Shown piece after piece: positions 24,801-61,992 of a stretch of 64,000 nt of DNA. The DNA is taken from assembly GCA_009777515.1 (NCBI GenBank), contig WRLR01000001.1, forward strand, positions 1 through 64,000. The letters run 5' to 3'. Position 1 is the stretch's first letter. The number at the start of each line of letters is the position of its first letter. Origin of the DNA: Oscillospiraceae bacterium. GTDB lineage: Bacteria; Bacillota; Clostridia; WRLR01. The translations under genes were made by a program, and so were the position numbers. The notes beneath the pieces were generated by a model that saw nothing but the letters and a program-made list of their open reading frames with translations, had not been told where the DNA came from and ran no database searches.

Positions 24801-27800
24801 ATGCTGGAGACACTGCTGCTGGTCGACGGGAACAGTATCGTCAACAGGGCGTTTTACGCGTTTGCCGGGCAGGCGCGGCTGGTGACGAAGAGCGGCTTCC
24901 CGACGAACGCCATTTTCGGGTTCCTAAATATATTCTATAAATATTTCGACGACATAGGCCCGACCCACGTGTGCGTCGCTTTCGACATGCGCGGCCCCAC
25001 GTTCCGGCACTTAGAATATGACCAGTACAAGGCGGGGCGCAAGGGCATGCCCGACGAGCTTGCCATGCAGATGCCCGTACTCAAAGAAGTCATCGGAGCG
25101 CTCGGGCTGCGCATGGCGGAATGCGAGGGCTTCGAAGCGGACGACATACTCGGAACGCTGTCGGCGCTGGCCGAGCAGGCGGGCATGCAGTGCGTCATTG
25201 TGACGGGCGACCGGGACTCGCTGCAGTTGGTGTCGCCGGCGACGCGCGTGCTGCTGCCGGTCACGCGCGCCGGGCAGACGCGCACCGAGGAGTACGACGA
25301 GGCGGCGCTGCTGGAAAAATACGGGGTAACGCCGGGACTGTTCATCGATCTCAAAGGCCTGATGGGGGACTCGTCTGACAACATACCTGGCGTCCCGGGA
25401 ATCGGTGAAAAAACCGCGATGGAGCTGGTGGGCAAGCACGGGGGGATCGACAGCATATACGCGAACCTCGACGCGGTGGAGCGAAAAACCGTGCGCGCGA
25501 AGCTGGAGGCGGGCAGGGACCTGGCTGTTATGAGCCGCAGGCTGGCGACGATCGCCAGGGACGCCCCTTGCGGCCTGGGGGTGCCGGATCTGGCCCTCAT
25601 GGCGCCCAACCGGGCAAACCTTTACAAACTGTTCACAGAATTGCAATTCCAGTCATATATATTAAAGATGGGCCTGACTCAGGCTGACGCGCTGGACGAC
25701 AATGTGCCGGAGGGCGGCGGTGAAGACGGCGAGGGCTGTGAGGGCAACGAGGGCAGCGGCGGTGGAACGGATTCGGAAGCGGCGCCGGGGGCGCAACGCG
25801 ATGTGGTCGTAATTATCGACGGCGAAACGGCTTTCTATGATATGATTGAAGCGCTGTGCGAAGCTGGGAAAAGCGCCGGAAGCGAAAGCGGCGAGGGCGC
25901 CGTAATCGAAATAGCCGAGGGCAGCAGGGATGGCGAGAACAGCAAGTGCACCGAGGGCATTAATAGCGGCGAGGGCGCCGACAAAGGCGTCGGGGGCTTT
26001 GTGTTCTACCCGATCTTTGAAAAAGTAGGCAAATTCGATCAAATATTGTTCGGCGCCGCATGCGCCCACGCGGGCGGCGCGTACTACTTTGAGACGGAAG
26101 ACGGGCTGGCGCTGCGCAACGCGAGCGGCGGCGATGGCGGCGTGGGCAACGTAAGCAGTAGCGAGGGTAACGCAGGCGACGGCGAGAGCTGTGAGGGCAA
26201 CGCAAACGGCGGCGCAGGCGGACCATCGCCGGGCGCGATGTATTATGTGCCGCTTAAGGATGTTTTCGACGGCTTCGGGCGGCTATTTTCCGACCCCGGC
26301 GTCCGCGTCTATGGCCATGACATAAAGCAGATCAACCATTGGCTCCTCTCCAACGGTAAAGACTGCCCCGTATTCGCTTTTGACACGATGCTGGGCGCCT
26401 ATGTCGCGGACGCCGCCTCGGGCGCGTACAGCCTTTCAGACATCTATCGGGCGCGGACGGGCGGCGAGATGGAGACAGTTGACGAGATGCGCGGCAGGGG
26501 CAAGTCGCGCAAAGCGCTGACCGAGTACGGCCCCGGGGAAATGGCCAAGGCCGCCTCGGACTGCGCCAGGGCGGCGCTGGCCCTCGTTCCCGGGCTGATG
26601 GCCGAAATAGCGGAAAACGGGCAGGAGGACCTGTATTACTCCATCGAGCTGCCGCTCTCGGAAGCGCTGGCCGCGATGGAGGTTATGGGCTTCCGGGTGG
26701 ACGTGGGCGGCCTGCGCGAGTTTTCTTCGGAGCTCGACAACTACATCGGGGAGTTGACTGTGCAGATATACGATCTCGCCGGTGAAGAGTTCAATATAAA
26801 TTCGACAAAGCAGTTGGGTGTGATCCTGTACGAAAAGCTTGGCCTGCGCCCCATCAAAAAAACGAAAACGGGCTATTCCACAGACGCCGACGCGCTGGCA
26901 GCCCTATCCGGCAAGCACCCCCTGGTGGACAAAATATCGGAGTACCGCCAGCATGTCAAGCTGAGGTCCACGTATACGGACGGGCTGATAGAGCTTATCA
27001 ACCCCGCCGACGGCAGAATCCACACCACGATGAACCAGGCCGTTACGGCGACGGGCAGGATCAGCAGCACGGAGCCCAATCTGCAGAATATACCCGTGCG
27101 CCTCGCCCTGGGCCGCGAAATCAGGAGGCTGTTTGTCCCGGAAAGCGAGGGGACGCTGCTGCTTGGCGCGGACTACTCGCAGATCGAGCTGCGCGTGCTG
27201 GCGCACCTGTCCGAGGACGCGGCGCTGGCGGAGGCGTTCAGGGACGGCGCGGACATACACAGATCGACTGCATCCAGGGTCTTCGGCGTGCCGGAGTCCC
27301 AGGTCACAGAGGAAATGAGGACGCGCGCCAAGGCCGTCAACTTCGGCATAGTGTATGGAATAGGGGACTTTTCATTGGCGCGCGACATAGGGGTGACGCG
27401 CAAAGAGGCCCGCGAATACATCGACGGCTACCTGGAAAAACATGAGGGGGTGAGGCGCTTCATGAAGGATTCCGTCGAGCAGGGCAAGCTGACCGGTTAT
27501 ACCCACACGCTGCTGCACAGGCGGCGCAGCCTCCCGGAGCTAAAAGCGTCGAACTTCAATACGCGGGCGTTCGGCGAGCGCGTGGCGATGAACACCCCGG
27601 TGCAGGGCAGCGCGGCAGACATCATTAAAATCGCGATGGTGCGCGTATACAAGGAGCTCAAATCGCGCGGCCTGAAGTCGAGGCTTATCTTGCAAGTGCA
27701 CGACGAACTCATAATAGAGGCATATGAGGACGAACTGGCCGCCGCAGCCTCCATTTTGCGCGACTCAATGGAGCAGGCCCTGTCGCTGTCGGTGCCTCTG

Positions 27801-27857
27801 GTGGCGGATGTGTACTACGGGCGCAACTGGAAGGACATAAAATCAGTAAAGATATGA
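24801..27857 (+). CDS. polA: DNA polymerase I
   Basis: 5' nuclease domain (LLVDGNSIVNRAFYAF; GDSSDNIPGVPGIGEKTA) and family A polymerase motifs (LLGADYSQIELRVLAHLS, AKAVNFGIVYGI, LQVHDELIIEA). Confidence 0.97.
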   Translation: MLETLLLVDGNSIVNRAFYAFAGQARLVTKSGFPTNAIFGFLNIFYKYFDDIGPTHVCVAFDMRGPTFRHLEYDQYKAGRKGMPDELAMQMPVLKEVIGALGLRMAECEGFEADDILGTLSALAEQAGMQCVIVTGDRDSLQLVSPATRVLLPVTRAGQTRTEEYDEAALLEKYGVTPGLFIDLKGLMGDSSDNIPGVPGIGEKTAMELVGKHGGIDSIYANLDAVERKTVRAKLEAGRDLAVMSRRLATIARDAPCGLGVPDLALMAPNRANLYKLFTELQFQSYILKMGLTQADALDDNVPEGGGEDGEGCEGNEGSGGGTDSEAAPGAQRDVVVIIDGETAFYDMIEALCEAGKSAGSESGEGAVIEIAEGSRDGENSKCTEGINSGEGADKGVGGFVFYPIFEKVGKFDQILFGAACAHAGGAYYFETEDGLALRNASGGDGGVGNVSSSEGNAGDGESCEGNANGGAGGPSPGAMYYVPLKDVFDGFGRLFSDPGVRVYGHDIKQINHWLLSNGKDCPVFAFDTMLGAYVADAASGAYSLSDIYRARTGGEMETVDEMRGRGKSRKALTEYGPGEMAKAASDCARAALALVPGLMAEIAENGQEDLYYSIELPLSEALAAMEVMGFRVDVGGLREFSSELDNYIGELTVQIYDLAGEEFNINSTKQLGVILYEKLGLRPIKKTKTGYSTDADALAALSGKHPLVDKISEYRQHVKLRSTYTDGLIELINPADGRIHTTMNQAVTATGRISSTEPNLQNIPVRLALGREIRRLFVPESEGTLLLGADYSQIELRVLAHLSEDAALAEAFRDGADIHRSTASRVFGVPESQVTEEMRTRAKAVNFGIVYGIGDFSLARDIGVTRKEAREYIDGYLEKHEGVRRFMKDSVEQGKLTGYTHTLLHRRRSLPELKASNFNTRAFGERVAMNTPVQGSAADIIKIAMVRVYKELKSRGLKSRLILQVHDELIIEAYEDELAAAASILRDSMEQALSLSVPLVADVYYGRNWKDIKSVKI
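25700..26232 (+). repeat. Gly/Glu/Ser-rich in-frame expansions within PolA
   Basis: EGGGEDGEGCEGNEGSGGGTDSEAA; SGEGAVIEIAEGSRDGENSKCTEGINSGEGADKGVGG; SGGDGGVGNVSSSEGNAGDGESCEGNANGGAGG. Confidence 0.85.
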
Positions 27858-28623
27858 CTGAGCAAACAGCGGAGCAAACAGAGGAGCAAACGACGGAGCA
27901 AACGACGGAAAAACTGCAGAGCAGGTAACGGAACAAGAAGAGGAGCGAACGGCTCAACATATGTCGGAGCAAACGACGGGTAAAGCAACGGGGCGCTGCT
28001 TTGTTATAGGGCTGACGGGCAGTTCCGGGAGCGGGAAGAGCGCCGCCGCGAAAATCCTGTCCGCGCTGGGCGCCGAAATAATCGACACGGACGCTATCGC
28101 CCGCGACGTCGTCAAACGGCGCGATACGCTCGACGAGCTTATTGGCGCGCTCGGGGGCTGGGTAGTCGACGGACAGGGCAGGTTCGACCGCGCGCGCGTT
28201 TCGGAACGGGCGTTTGCGGACAGCGCGGTCCTTGCCCGATTGACCGAGATTACGCACAAGTTTATCATTGACGATATTCGCAGCCGCATAGATGCGCTGA
28301 ACGCGGCGAACGCGGCGAGCGCGGCCGGGCGCGTCATAGTTATAGACGCGCCGCTCCCCGTAGAGCGGGGCTTTTTGGACACGTCGGACGTCGTCTGGGT
28401 CGTCAGCGCGACGCGCGAGCGCAGGCTGCGGCGCGTGATGGAGCGGGACGGCATCAGCGCCGGCGCGGCAGAGGCGCGCTTTGCGTCACAGATGGCCGAC
28501 GAGGACTACGAGAGGCTTGCCGATGTCGTCATCAGGAACAACGGCGACATTGGCGGGCTGGAAGCGGAAATAAGGCGGCAATACGCATTGCTGGAACATG
28601 CAATAAGCCAAGTGAGCGGTTAA
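27854..28623 (+). CDS. coaE: Dephospho-CoA kinase; uninterrupted ORF 27961-28623, with an out-of-frame N-terminal repeat tract starting at 27854
   Basis: CFVIGLTGSSGSGKSAAAKILSALGAEIIDTDAIARDVV; the 27854 ATG overlaps the polA TGA (ATGA) and its frame stops at 27926-27928. Confidence 0.9.
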
Positions 28624-28647: not shown

Positions 28648-29739
28648 ATGAAGCTGGGCATAATCGGGCTGCCGAACGTCGGCAAGAGCACTTTGTTTAA
28701 CGCCTTGACCAGGGCCGGCGCGGAGGCGTCGAACTACCCGTTTACCACCATCGAGCCGAACATAGGGATCGTGCCCGTCCCCGACGAGCGGCTGTCGGGC
28801 CTTGCCGACATGTACAAGCCGCCCAAGGTCACAAACGCGACGGTGGAGTTTGTTGACATCGCGGGGCTGGTAAAGGGCGCGAGCAGGGGCGAGGGGCTGG
28901 GCAACAAATTTTTGTCGGAGATCCGGCAGGTCGACGCGATCGTGCATGTCGTGCGCTGCTTTGAGGACGACAATGTGGCGCATGTCGACGGGAGCGTGCA
29001 GCCCGCGCGCGATATGGAGACCATCGGGCTTGAGCTGATTTTTTCGGACATGGAGACGGTGGAGAGAAGGATAGACAGGACGCGCAAGCTGTTAAAGGGC
29101 GATAAAAAGCTTGAAGTCGATCTGGCGTTCTACGACAGGGTCTACAAGGGGCTGGAGGGCGGGGCGCCGGCGCGCAGGTTGGAGATGAACAGCGTGGAGC
29201 AAAAGCTCTGCGACGAGCTTTTTTTGCTGACGTCGAAGCCGGTCCTATATGTGGCGAACCTCTCCGAAGCGGACATGGCGGACCCGGGCCTAAACGCGCA
29301 TTACGCGGCGCTGTGCGAATTTGCTGCGAGCGAGGGGGCGGGTGTGCTGCCCCTGTGCGCGAAGATCGAAGCGGAGATATCGGAATTTGACGACGAGGAC
29401 AAATCGCTGTTCCTGGAGGAAATGGGGCTCTCGCAAACGGGCTTGGATCGGTTGATATCGGAAAGCTACGCGCTGTTGGGCCTCATCAGCTTCTTTTCCG
29501 TCAACAAGAACGAGGTGCGGGCGACGACGGTCGTTCAAGGCTCGCGGGCGCCGCAGGCTGCGGGCAAAATACACACGGACTTCGAGCGGGGCTTCATCAG
29601 GGCGGAGGTGGTCGCGTACGACGATCTGATGCGGGCGGGTACATACGCGGCCGCGCGCGAAAAGGCGTACGTGCGCTCCGAGGGTAAGGAGTACGTGATA
29701 CGCGACGGCGACGTCGTGCTTGTGCGCTTCAACGTGTAA
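28648..29739 (+). CDS. ychF: Redox-regulated ATPase YchF (OLA1 family)
   Basis: MKLGIIGLPNVGKSTLFNALTRAGAEASNYPFTTIEPN; TGS-like end GFIRAEVVAYDDL. Confidence 0.97.
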   Translation: MKLGIIGLPNVGKSTLFNALTRAGAEASNYPFTTIEPNIGIVPVPDERLSGLADMYKPPKVTNATVEFVDIAGLVKGASRGEGLGNKFLSEIRQVDAIVHVVRCFEDDNVAHVDGSVQPARDMETIGLELIFSDMETVERRIDRTRKLLKGDKKLEVDLAFYDRVYKGLEGGAPARRLEMNSVEQKLCDELFLLTSKPVLYVANLSEADMADPGLNAHYAALCEFAASEGAGVLPLCAKIEAEISEFDDEDKSLFLEEMGLSQTGLDRLISESYALLGLISFFSVNKNEVRATTVVQGSRAPQAAGKIHTDFERGFIRAEVVAYDDLMRAGTYAAAREKAYVRSEGKEYVIRDGDVVLVRFNV

Positions 29740-39112: not shown

Positions 39113-41746
39113 GTGGCCCATTTTTTTTGCGTCTCCAAAATTACTATATTACGCTGCATACATACGCACGGATGCGGCGCGGCGGCTGTAATAACGACTC
39201 TAGCGGTACAATGGCACAGAGGGACCGACGTGGCGATACAAACAACCTGGGACAATGTGGACAACGACGGAGCGAGGCAGTGCGGCCTGCTGTCAGAGCT
39301 ATATCGGCTGGCGGAGGCTAGCGAGACCGGCGATTTTTTGTTCGCTATCGACGCGTGCGGGCTTTCCAGCGAAGAAGCAGAGGCCGCCCGCCTGTTCAAC
39401 AAAGCCTTCGAAAACTACAAGGAGTCCGTCGAATACGAAATCATGAAATACCGGCTCACCAGCGACGCCCTCGGTATCGGGCTGTGGGACATGGATATTG
39501 TACTGGGGGACCCCATAAACCCAGCCAATTCGATAACATGGTCGCCGGAGTTCCGAGGCATGCTGGGCTATGGCGACGTAGAAGAGTTCCCGAACGTCAT
39601 GCACAGCTGGATCGACCGGCTCCACCCGCACGATCGGGAGAAGGCTTTCGACGCTTTCCTGGCCCATGTCGACGACTATTCCGGGGCGACGCCGTATAAC
39701 GTCGAATATCGGCTGATGCTCAAAAACGGCACGTACCGGAACTTCCATGCCTATGGCACGACGCTGAGGAACGCGGCGGGCGTGCCGCTGAGGGTGGCCG
39801 GCGCCCTGATGGACATAACCGAAAAGAAGCAGATGATCGACCGCGAGCACAAGCTCGAGATGCAAAAAGAGGCTGCGCTCGCCGCCAACGAGGCCAAGAG
39901 CATGTTTCTGGCCAGCATGTCCCACGAGATACGCACGCCGATGAACGCGATACTGGGTATGTCGGACCTGCTGCTGCAGGAAAAACTTAACAAGCGCCAG
40001 TTCGGATATGTAAATGACATCAAAACAGCCGCCGCCGCACTGCTGGACATTATCAACGATATTTTGGACATATCGAAGATACAGGCGGGCAAGCTGAGCC
40101 TTGTCCCCGTGCACTACTACCTGGGCGCAATGCTGGACAATCTGGCCTCGGTGATGAAGCTGCTGGTGGACGACAAGGGCATAGCGTTCAAGCTGGACGT
40201 GCGGGGCGATATCCCCGTTTGCCTGTACGGCGACGACATACGCGTGCGGCAGGTGCTGCTGAACCTGCTGAGCAACGCTGTCAAGTTCACGGAAAGAGGT
40301 TATGTGCATCTATTGGTCGAGGCGACCGCCGACAGCGTACATTTTACCGTCACCGATTCCGGAATCGGCATAAGGGAACAGGACATACCCAAGCTGTATG
40401 TAGACTTCGAACAGTTCGACACGCACAAAAACCGCAGCAAGAAAGGCACGGGCCTCGGCCTGCCCATATCCAGGGCGCTGGTGGAAATCATGGGCGGTAC
40501 CATCGAGGTGGAAAGCATTTACGGGCAAGGCTCGTCGTTCCACGTGGAAATCCCCCTGGTCGCCGGCGACGAGACGAAGGTGGCGTATTCGGACGACAAC
40601 GCAGTCCCCATTTACGCGCCCGAAGCCAGGGTGCTGGTGGTGGACGACAACGCAATGAACCTGAACGTCGCAACGGGCCTTTTGCGGCTGTACAAAATCG
40701 CGGCGGAGACGGCGTCTTCAGGCGAACAGGCCATTGAGATGCTAAAGAATAAGCAATACGACATAATTTTTATGGACCATATGATGCCGGGGATGGACGG
40801 CGTTGAGACGTCCAGGGCAATACGGGGCATGGGCATCGGCGGGGCCATTATAGCGTTTACCGCAAACGCCACCACGGGGGCAAAAGAAATTTTACTGGAT
40901 GCCGGGATGGACGACTATCTCACAAAGCCCATATCGAGGAAGGACCTGACGTCCATGCTCGACAAATGGCTGCCGCAGGCCAAAAAAATGGCGCCGTTCC
41001 GGGAAGCGGAAGTGGGCGCCGGCAGCAAAGACAGCCTGGATGCCGGCAGCATAGATAGCCTGGTTGCCGGAAGAATAGATAGCCTGGATACTGACAACGG
41101 AGGCGGCGACGGCGGCGACGTCGGCGGGGACGAGGTTTTTTGGGCTAAAATCGGGCTCATCGGCGAGATGTCCGTCTCAACCGGCCTGGACAGGGTCGAT
41201 GGCCAAAAGGACGAGTTCAAAAAAATCCTGAGGCTCATGATCAATGAGATTGAAAAGAGCAGCGGCAACCTCGTGCGCTTTTTCGACGCTGGCGACATGA
41301 AAAATTTTTGCATCGAGGCCCATTGCATAAAAAGCTCGCTGGCCAACATTGGCGCCATTGATCTGGCCGGAAAGGCGCAAGAACTCGAGGATGCGTCCGC
41401 CAAAGGCGACATTGGCTCCTGCGCGCCCGCGCTGCAGCCGTTCCTTGGGGCAATCGGCAGGTTTGGCGAGGATTTGTGCGGCGCTTTCGCCGTTATTGGC
41501 CAATGCGACAGGCCTCCCGCCGCGCCGCCGGAACTTATGCCCGCGCTTTTGGGCCTGCTGTCCGCATTTGCCGACATGGACATCGGGCGCATTGAAAACG
41601 AGGCATCCAAGCTGGGCCAGATAAACATCGGCGGGCCCATTAAAGACGAAGTCGAGCAGTTGCTGGACATGGTTTCGGTGATGGACTACGACGAGGCAGC
41701 GGGGCGGATACATAAAATGGTGTACAAGGAGCGTATCAGTGGATAA
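39113..41746 (+). CDS. Hybrid sensor histidine kinase (PAS + HisKA + HATPase + REC + Hpt); the true start may be GTG at 39230
   Basis: FLASMSHEIRTPMNAILGMSDLLL, FTVTDSGIGIREQDI, GTGLGLPIS, VLVVDDNAMNLNVATGLL...IIFMDHMMPGMDGVE, Hpt EAHCIKSSLANIGAIDLAGKAQELE. Confidence 0.93.
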   Translation: MAHFFCVSKITILRCIHTHGCGAAAVITTLAVQWHRGTDVAIQTTWDNVDNDGARQCGLLSELYRLAEASETGDFLFAIDACGLSSEEAEAARLFNKAFENYKESVEYEIMKYRLTSDALGIGLWDMDIVLGDPINPANSITWSPEFRGMLGYGDVEEFPNVMHSWIDRLHPHDREKAFDAFLAHVDDYSGATPYNVEYRLMLKNGTYRNFHAYGTTLRNAAGVPLRVAGALMDITEKKQMIDREHKLEMQKEAALAANEAKSMFLASMSHEIRTPMNAILGMSDLLLQEKLNKRQFGYVNDIKTAAAALLDIINDILDISKIQAGKLSLVPVHYYLGAMLDNLASVMKLLVDDKGIAFKLDVRGDIPVCLYGDDIRVRQVLLNLLSNAVKFTERGYVHLLVEATADSVHFTVTDSGIGIREQDIPKLYVDFEQFDTHKNRSKKGTGLGLPISRALVEIMGGTIEVESIYGQGSSFHVEIPLVAGDETKVAYSDDNAVPIYAPEARVLVVDDNAMNLNVATGLLRLYKIAAETASSGEQAIEMLKNKQYDIIFMDHMMPGMDGVETSRAIRGMGIGGAIIAFTANATTGAKEILLDAGMDDYLTKPISRKDLTSMLDKWLPQAKKMAPFREAEVGAGSKDSLDAGSIDSLVAGRIDSLDTDNGGGDGGDVGGDEVFWAKIGLIGEMSVSTGLDRVDGQKDEFKKILRLMINEIEKSSGNLVRFFDAGDMKNFCIEAHCIKSSLANIGAIDLAGKAQELEDASAKGDIGSCAPALQPFLGAIGRFGEDLCGAFAVIGQCDRPPAAPPELMPALLGLLSAFADMDIGRIENEASKLGQINIGGPIKDEVEQLLDMVSVMDYDEAAGRIHKMVYKERISG
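41018..41089 (+). repeat. 24-bp in-frame tandem repeat x3 (AGSKDSLD/AGSIDSLV/AGRIDSLD)
   Basis: gccggcagcaaagacagcctggat|gccggcagcatagatagcctggtt|gccggaagaatagatagcctggat. Confidence 0.95.
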
Positions 41747-42572
41747 CAATGCGGAACTTTTTTTCATACCGTCCCTCCTAAAGCTGGAGGCGCTGGGCCT
41801 GGAGCGTTTTTCCGAAACGTCCGAGCTGTCTGCGGGGGCGTACTTTGAGCTGCTCAGGCGGTTCATGAAACTCGCGTTGCCCGCCGTCAGCGCGCTGCGA
41901 CGGTTCATCAGCCGCAACGGCGACATTGACTCGTATAAAAGCTTGGACGATATAATCCCCGTCCTCAAAGAGATGGGGTGCGACGGCTACGTGTCGGCGT
42001 TCTATGCGGTCCTTGGCGCATATGAGACGGGTAACTGGCGGCTGGCGGCCCACCACGCCGACATGGCGATGGAGGGCTTCGACGCATTCTATTCAAAGAT
42101 ATCCTCGGCCAAAAGGACAGCCGTCGAGTCGGCGCCCGACGCGGGCCTGCCGCTGGGCGAATACATAAAGGCCGTCCAGGAGAGCGGCAAACAGCGGAAG
42201 ATGGTGGTCCTGGCCGTGGACGACTCGCCCGTCATCTTAAAGTCAGTCTCATCGGTGCTGAGCGCCGAATACAAGGTGTACACCCTGCTCAAGCCCGAAA
42301 TGCTCCCCAAGATAATGAAGCAGGTCACGCCGGAACTTTTTTTGCTCGACTACAAGATGCCTGACATAAGCGGGTTTGAGTTGATACCGGTGATCCGGGG
42401 GTTCAAGGAACACCGCGACACCCCGATCGTGTTCTTGACCTCCGAGGGGACGGTGGACAACGTGACGGCCGCATTGGCCCTGGGCGCGAGCGACTTTATC
42501 GTAAAGCCGTTCAACCCGGGCGCGCTGCGGGAAAAAATAGCCAAATGGATAGTCCGAAAAGAACAGGCGTAA
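41739..42572 (+). CDS. Response regulator: N-terminal helical (Hpt-like?) domain plus REC, no DNA-binding domain
   Basis: MVVLAVDDSPVILKSVSSVLSAEYKVYTLL...LFLLDYKMPDISGFELIPVI...PIVFLTSEGT. Confidence 0.88.
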   Translation: MDNNAELFFIPSLLKLEALGLERFSETSELSAGAYFELLRRFMKLALPAVSALRRFISRNGDIDSYKSLDDIIPVLKEMGCDGYVSAFYAVLGAYETGNWRLAAHHADMAMEGFDAFYSKISSAKRTAVESAPDAGLPLGEYIKAVQESGKQRKMVVLAVDDSPVILKSVSSVLSAEYKVYTLLKPEMLPKIMKQVTPELFLLDYKMPDISGFELIPVIRGFKEHRDTPIVFLTSEGTVDNVTAALALGASDFIVKPFNPGALREKIAKWIVRKEQA

Positions 42573-61280: not shown

Positions 61281-61613
61281 ATGAACCCAAACGTGAAACC
61301 CATAAAGCATAAAGCCAAAAAAAACCGTGAGGCCGCTTCGCTCCGCTACGATCCGGAGCGCGACTACGCCCCGCAGGTGACTGCTGCGGGCAGGGGATAT
61401 GTCGCCGAGACTATCATAAAAACTGCGCGCGAGGCGGGTGTGCCGGTGTACCGGGACGAGGCTCTGGCGGAGACGCTGAACAGGCTATCGGTGGGGGACA
61501 TGATCCCAAGGGAGCTGTTTGAGGTCGTCGCCGAGGTACTCGCCTTTGTGATTGGCGTCGATCAACGGGGAGCGCCGGGCGGCTCCATCGGGCGCGGGGG
61601 ATCGGATGGCTGA
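61281..61613 (+). CDS. FlhB cytoplasmic-domain-like (YlqH/FlhB2) protein
   Basis: AASLRYDPERDYAPQVTAAGRGYVAETIIKTAREAGVPVYRDEALAETLNRLSVGDMIPRELFEVVAEVLAFV. Confidence 0.85.
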   Translation: MNPNVKPIKHKAKKNREAASLRYDPERDYAPQVTAAGRGYVAETIIKTAREAGVPVYRDEALAETLNRLSVGDMIPRELFEVVAEVLAFVIGVDQRGAPGGSIGRGGSDG

Positions 61614-61992
61614 CCGGCGGGCCGTTGGGCGTGCCGGGGAGGAAGCCGCGCGCAAATTCCTGGCCGACCAGGGGTATAGGATTCTCTTCAATAATTTCAG
61701 ATATGGCAGGTATGGCGAAATCGATATTATCGCCATAAAATCGGGCGTCGTATGCTTTGTCGAGGTGAAGTCGCGGGCCAGCGCCGCATACGGCACGCCC
61801 GCCGAGGCGGTGAGCTACGCAAAACGCAGAAAAATAGTCGCCGTCGCCAACCATTTTATCAGGGTCAGCGGCTACGAAGGGCACATGCTGCGCTTTGACG
61901 TCGTAGAGGTGTATTTGAACAGAGACGGCGCGGATGGGGCGCCGCACACCGTCAAAGGGATTCGTCACATAGAAAACGCATTCGGCGTGTAA
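61606..61992 (+). CDS. yraN: YraN/UPF0102 family endonuclease-like protein
   Basis: AVGRAGEEAARKFLADQGYRILFNNFRYGRYGEIDIIAIKSGVVCFVEVKSRASAAYGTPAEAVSYAKRRKI. Confidence 0.94.
   Translation: MADRRAVGRAGEEAARKFLADQGYRILFNNFRYGRYGEIDIIAIKSGVVCFVEVKSRASAAYGTPAEAVSYAKRRKIVAVANHFIRVSGYEGHMLRFDVVEVYLNRDGADGAPHTVKGIRHIENAFGV

Follow-up and report, generated by a model that had tools for sequence, protein, structure and literature searches.

The gene for DNA polymerase I in this Oscillospiraceae genome is followed by that for dephospho-CoA kinase, and the polA stop codon overlaps an ATG whose reading frame closes before the coaE coding sequence begins. This arrangement raises the question of whether the overlapping ATG once opened an N-terminal extension of CoaE that has been split by the loss of a nucleotide, and of where translation of CoaE now begins. 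The window, which is the whole stretch of 64,000 nucleotides analysed (positions 1 to 64,000 of contig WRLR01000001.1), was examined together with other contigs of the same genome and with related genomes. The polA stop, the ATGA overlap, the short Glu-Gln-Thr (EQT) reading frame with its stop and the coaE ATG at 27961 were all reproduced from the sequence at the positions given in the original prediction. The features of the junction and its surroundings are as follows, with the source of each assignment in parentheses.

24801-27857, + strand: polA, DNA polymerase I (5'-3' exonuclease and family A polymerase), 1018 aa (ORF call; Pfam)
27854-27857, + strand: ATGA, the polA TGA stop overlapping an ATG, the classic -4 nt coupling arrangement (sequence)
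27854-27928, + strand: 24-codon Glu-Gln-Thr ORF, MTEQTAEQTEEQTTEQTTEKLQSR, read in a different frame from CoaE and ending in a TAA at 27926-27928 (sequence)
27860 to about 27978, + strand: tandem array of 12-nt units that occupies the polA-coaE spacer, consensus GAGCAAACGACG (Glu-Gln-Thr-Thr) (TRF for the 5' part; register analysis)
27908-27918, + strand: sole 11-nt unit of the array, GAAAAACTGCA, at which the array frame shifts by one (register analysis)
27940-27945, + strand: GAGGAG, a possible Shine-Dalgarno sequence some 15 nt upstream of the coaE ATG (sequence)
27961-28623, + strand: coaE, dephospho-CoA kinase; 220 aa if read from the in-frame ATG at 27961 (PF01121, 5.3e-40; ORF call)
28648-29739, + strand: ychF-type GTPase gene, the next gene downstream of coaE (ORF call)

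The polA, EQT and coaE reading frames occupy three different frames. The polA product was matched by PF00476 (6.6e-160), PF02739 (1.2e-55) and PF01367 (3.4e-30); a long Gly/Glu/Ser-rich insert separates its 5' nuclease from the polymerase. From 27961 onward the CoaE domain is complete, with PF01121 aligned over positions 2-178 of 180, and it contains the P-loop GSSGSGKS; the domain over its length together with the P-loop identifies the product as a dephospho-CoA kinase. Upstream of this ATG the CoaE frame stays open as far as 27862, where it is bounded by a TGA at 27859-27861. The window does not encode a PolA-CoaE fusion, as polA ends at 27857 and the coaE frame is a different one.

The spacer between the two genes is built of the 12-nt array, decayed units of which run on toward the CoaE domain. 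Before the short unit the array reads, in order, GAGCAAACAGCG, GAGCAAACAGAG, GAGCAAACGACG and GAGCAAACGACG; the 11-nt unit follows, and after it come GAGCAGGTAACG, GAACAAGAAGAG, GAGCGAACGGCT, CAACATATGTCG and GAGCAAACGACG. Units therefore start at 27860, 27872, 27884, 27896 and 27908 and, beyond the 11-nt step, at 27919, 27931, 27943, 27955 and 27967. In that register the five units past the short one (the last 60 nt) agreed with the consensus at 42 of their 60 positions; of the eleven other registers the best gave 24 of 60, and none of 20,000 shuffles reached 42. The polA-overlapping ATG and the coaE ATG at 27961 occupy equivalent positions within the repeat unit. Since the 12-nt register is broken by a single 11-nt step, there is good support, on sequence grounds, for the loss of one nucleotide from an array that was once uniform.

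The repeat unit is free of stop codons in all three frames (readings EQTT, GAND and SKRR), so the openness of the short EQT ORF is weak evidence by itself, and an A preceding a TGA stop is not rare. Codon usage in the 5' half of the array showed a mild preference for the EQT frame, which scored +3.0 vs -0.1 and -2.1 for the other two. The 1-nt deletion that had been proposed to split an EQT extension of CoaE is thus backed by the repeat register and, weakly, by codon usage, and it is on the register that a formerly continuous CoaE extension would rest. The addition of one G near 27919, as had been suggested, does join the two frames, but this repair is not unique because any -1 change between 27862 and 27925 has the same effect. 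Position 27919 was rejected as the sole insertion site, the open frames alone allowing about 60 positions. The repeat register places the lost nucleotide in the unit at 27908-27918, 1-11 nt upstream of the suggested site. A simple homopolymer account, in which the A5 tract replaced a longer one, is possible; the register does not demand it. A search across the genome with a 25-mer of the array, allowing up to three mismatches, found no second EQT-repeat site.

Tandem arrays of other sequence were surveyed in 304 kb drawn from the window and other contigs of its genome (G000). Within about 255 kb of coding DNA, 86 in-gene arrays were found, 84 of them with a period divisible by 3, compared with 16 of 42 intergenic arrays. 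These dense in-gene arrays give rise to many low-complexity linkers in the genome. The EQT array belongs to this genome-wide class: like the other frame-preserving repeats and low-complexity linkers it has a period divisible by 3. It is unusual only in containing an 11-nt unit, which changes the frame in mid-array, and in its position straddling the start of a gene.

The in-frame ATG at 27961 is most likely the CoaE start. Plain CoaE from this codon is likely because the domain is complete from there and because relatives do without an extension. The Shine-Dalgarno-like GAGGAG would help initiation here and also favors this start, although its distance of about 15 nt from the ATG is greater than the 5-11 nt usual for the genome. 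The overlap of the polA stop with an ATG resembles the -4 nt ATGA arrangement of termination-reinitiation coupling (PMC6728339, PMC10666635), but it differs in that the ORF opened in the window ends after 24 codons and reaches CoaE only with one frame change; its stop is separated from the coaE ATG by 32 nt. Reinitiation falls to near zero past a stop-to-start distance of about 20-38 nt, and in tests in E. coli and Haloferax it was nearly lost at distances like 32 nt (PMC10666635). Because the opened ORF stops this far before the coaE ATG, ATGA coupling of coaE should be weak.

Within the same family the junction was compared in two genomes belonging to two genera (G001 and G002). In G001 (contig C343, L034:3-3776), 1258 codons encode full-length PolA and CoaE in one open frame, and a ychF-type GTPase gene also lies 3' of the fusion. 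In G002 (contig C249, L035:2-3349), PolA and CoaE likewise share one open frame, of which the 5' end is cut by the contig boundary. Pfam matches to both domains were obtained in each genome. The linkers of the two fusions are Pro/Ala-rich and of low complexity, with nothing in common with EQT, and that of G002 is itself built of 9/18-nt arrays; the window spacer resembles them in length and in low complexity. The original prediction had named conservation in relatives as a check, and the upstream EQT sequence was found in neither family relative and is not conserved. It had overlooked both the continuation of the array to the CoaE domain and the fusion of polA with coaE in these two genomes. 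Because the spacer differs in both relatives, and is also array-built in G002, its sequence appears free to change.

In other families of the class 27 loci were compared, and in 26 of them polA is a separate gene immediately preceding coaE. The gaps ranged from -56 to +230 nt and were mostly small, as measured to the first possible start codon. In these class relatives CoaE begins directly at the P-loop region or close to it and has a minimal extension or none; this, together with the position of polA directly upstream, argues that no CoaE extension is needed. The comparison as a whole shows that the polA-coaE spacer is not conserved and suggests that it can probably be dispensed with. No further frame of PolA-CoaE length was detected among the best class matches listed or in any of the 115 phylum genomes with a match, and no paper on a PolA-CoaE fusion was found in the open-access literature searched. 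A scan of genome contigs for congeners returned only two distant Azoarcus matches.

A tree of PolA and CoaE placed the window outside a group of G001 and G002 with support of 93/85, while the AU test did not reject a grouping of the window with G001 (p 0.27) and narrowly did not reject its grouping with G002 (p 0.055). The simplest history suggested by these data would be one of separate ancestral genes, growth of repeats at their junction, and fusion in the line leading to G001 and G002. A single fusion in that line is simpler because the tree places the window outside it and because outgroups with both genes carry them unfused. Alternatively, the family ancestor may have been fused, with the linker of the window lineage later cut by frame changes and polA gaining a stop of its own. 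Fusion in both other family genomes speaks for a broken fusion of this kind, as does the match of the window spacer to their linkers in length and low complexity. The placement of the window in the tree and the separate genes of every outgroup having both argue against it, and the polA and coaE frames of the window are two changes apart rather than one. This fused-ancestor history is therefore the second choice and is considered rather unlikely, although it is compatible with the account of the present state given below.

The explanation judged best as a whole, and favored with reasonable but not high confidence, is that the repeat spacer can be dispensed with and has tolerated a 1-nt slip, CoaE being made from 27961. 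In a family of Clostridia-like bacteria, simple-repeat DNA would have filled the junction of adjacent polA and coaE genes. In the window genome, the repeat would have given CoaE a (Glu-Gln-Thr-Thr)n N-terminal extension opened by the polA-overlapping ATG. The unit at 27908-27918 would later have lost one nucleotide, so that polA-coupled translation now stops after 24 codons at 27928, and intact CoaE would be made from the in-frame ATG at 27961, within a later unit of the array. If the extension is dispensable, the slip should be close to neutral, though it probably weakens polA-coupled translation of coaE.

A slip of this kind could also have been introduced by the consensus rather than by the genome. 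The true unit would then be 12 nt long, and CoaE would carry an unbroken EQT extension, some 40-50 residues long, that starts at the polA-overlapping ATG. Several observations are consistent with such an error: the array is regular except for a single out-of-register step, this step lies inside a repeat, the genome is a draft of 272 contigs with 7.5% contamination, and with the extension unbroken the two genes would again form a standard -4 nt coupled pair. Tandem repeats are a recognized problem for assembly (PMC6868369), and for this reason a sequencing or assembly error is retained as an alternative of some weight, although a clearly less probable one. Misassembly of repeats, however, mostly removes whole units and keeps the frame, and the sole slip found sits where it is harmless, as expected for a real mutation.

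The frequency of similar breaks was assessed with a codon-based scan for frame jumps over the 304 kb of the window genome, which called 14 jumps, ten of which were displayed. Eight of these ten corresponded to overlapping or adjacent gene pairs and two lay in frames open throughout; three of the four that were not displayed fell at the ends of fetched pieces and one inside L051 near a displayed jump. No other convincing broken frame was present among the ten displayed jumps. When 100 single-nucleotide losses were planted, a one-strand form of the detector picked up 75 and made 0 calls at the same places in unaltered DNA. With no unexplained frame break found in 304 kb at this sensitivity of about 75%, random consensus indels look rare; the loss probably lies in the genome rather than in the consensus.

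It is improbable that the A5 tract (27909-27913) is a site of programmed -1 ribosomal frameshifting, by which some EQT-extended CoaE would be produced beside the short form. The -1 direction fits, both frames are open between 27862 and 27925, and the 11-nt unit contains an A AAA C site. A GeneTack study also listed a 'DNA glycosylase / Dephospho-CoA kinase' cluster, and hence mutM/coaE junctions, among those with possible frameshifting and coupling (PMC3711429). The window site shares the -1 direction and A-rich character of dnaX-type programmed frameshifting but differs from it in several respects. The zero-frame codons GAA AAA CTG contain no X XXY YYZ heptamer, and downstream structure was not significant (MFE -14.6 kcal/mol, z -1.44). 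The frame transition is also not conserved, the family relatives having one uninterrupted frame and the outgroups separate genes. The suggestion of ribosomal frameshifting thus found no positive support, and the A5 tract is too short for usual transcriptional slippage (8-9 or more). A broader proposal treats the polA-coaE junction of this family as an evolutionary switch built from simple repeats, with low-level -1 slippage at the 11-nt unit still yielding some EQT-extended CoaE in the window genome; it is considered very improbable. The frame of the linker would then set whether CoaE forms part of DNA polymerase I or stands as a protein of its own and, if this were true, coenzyme A synthesis would be tied to a repair polymerase. 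Reversible phase variation of the extension through repeat slippage, which had also been raised as an origin of the indel, has in its favor the presence of a tandem array where translation starts. In the bacteria studied, CoaE is essential, and in the window it is intact in either state. Phase variation is extremely improbable because gain or loss of a 12-nt unit leaves the frame unchanged and the A5 tract is short.

Under the favored tolerated slip, the frame change itself matters little beyond showing that the spacer is free to vary, and gene callers will assign an uncertain CoaE start in the window genome. The more notable by-product of the comparison is the PolA-CoaE fusion, in which DNA polymerase I and dephospho-CoA kinase form one protein in two genera. 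The growth of repeats where two genes meet provides a concrete way for neighboring genes to fuse or to stay apart.

The CoaE junction is a recurrent fusion site. Fusions of MutM (formamidopyrimidine-DNA glycosylase) with CoaE were found in four phylum genomes (L056, L057, L058 and L059, in G419, G456, G460 and G457, respectively), and one genome each carried a Sua5/YrdC-CoaE fusion (L036:1058-2878, G386) and a CoaE-M18 aminopeptidase fusion (L037:2495-4495, G028). The MutM-CoaE fusions, like the mutM/coaE cluster of PMC3711429, belong to the polA-(mutM)-coaE operon region, as the window locus does, and fusion or a change of frame recurs at the CoaE junction. They differ from the present family in that the partner here is PolA, joined through a repeat-built linker, and in that the genes of the window are unfused.

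A second polA arising from contamination was considered as a confounder and rejected, the only other family A polymerase of the genome being a different protein on contig 106. This second family A DNA polymerase (L055:6658-8526, - strand, G000:C106) is 623 aa long and comprises 3'-5' exonuclease and polymerase parts without the 5' nuclease. Two further overlaps were noted elsewhere in the window. At about 41738-41748 the end of a long gene with an HPt-like terminus and the GTG start of a response-regulator-like ORF overlap by 8 nt (GTGGATAA); this overlap, near 41741, is one of the gene-pair frame jumps displayed in the scan. At 61281-61990 a YraN-like (UPF0102) gene is overlapped, in a different frame, by a short ORF resembling the FlhB/EscU C-terminal domain, both having been named by eye.
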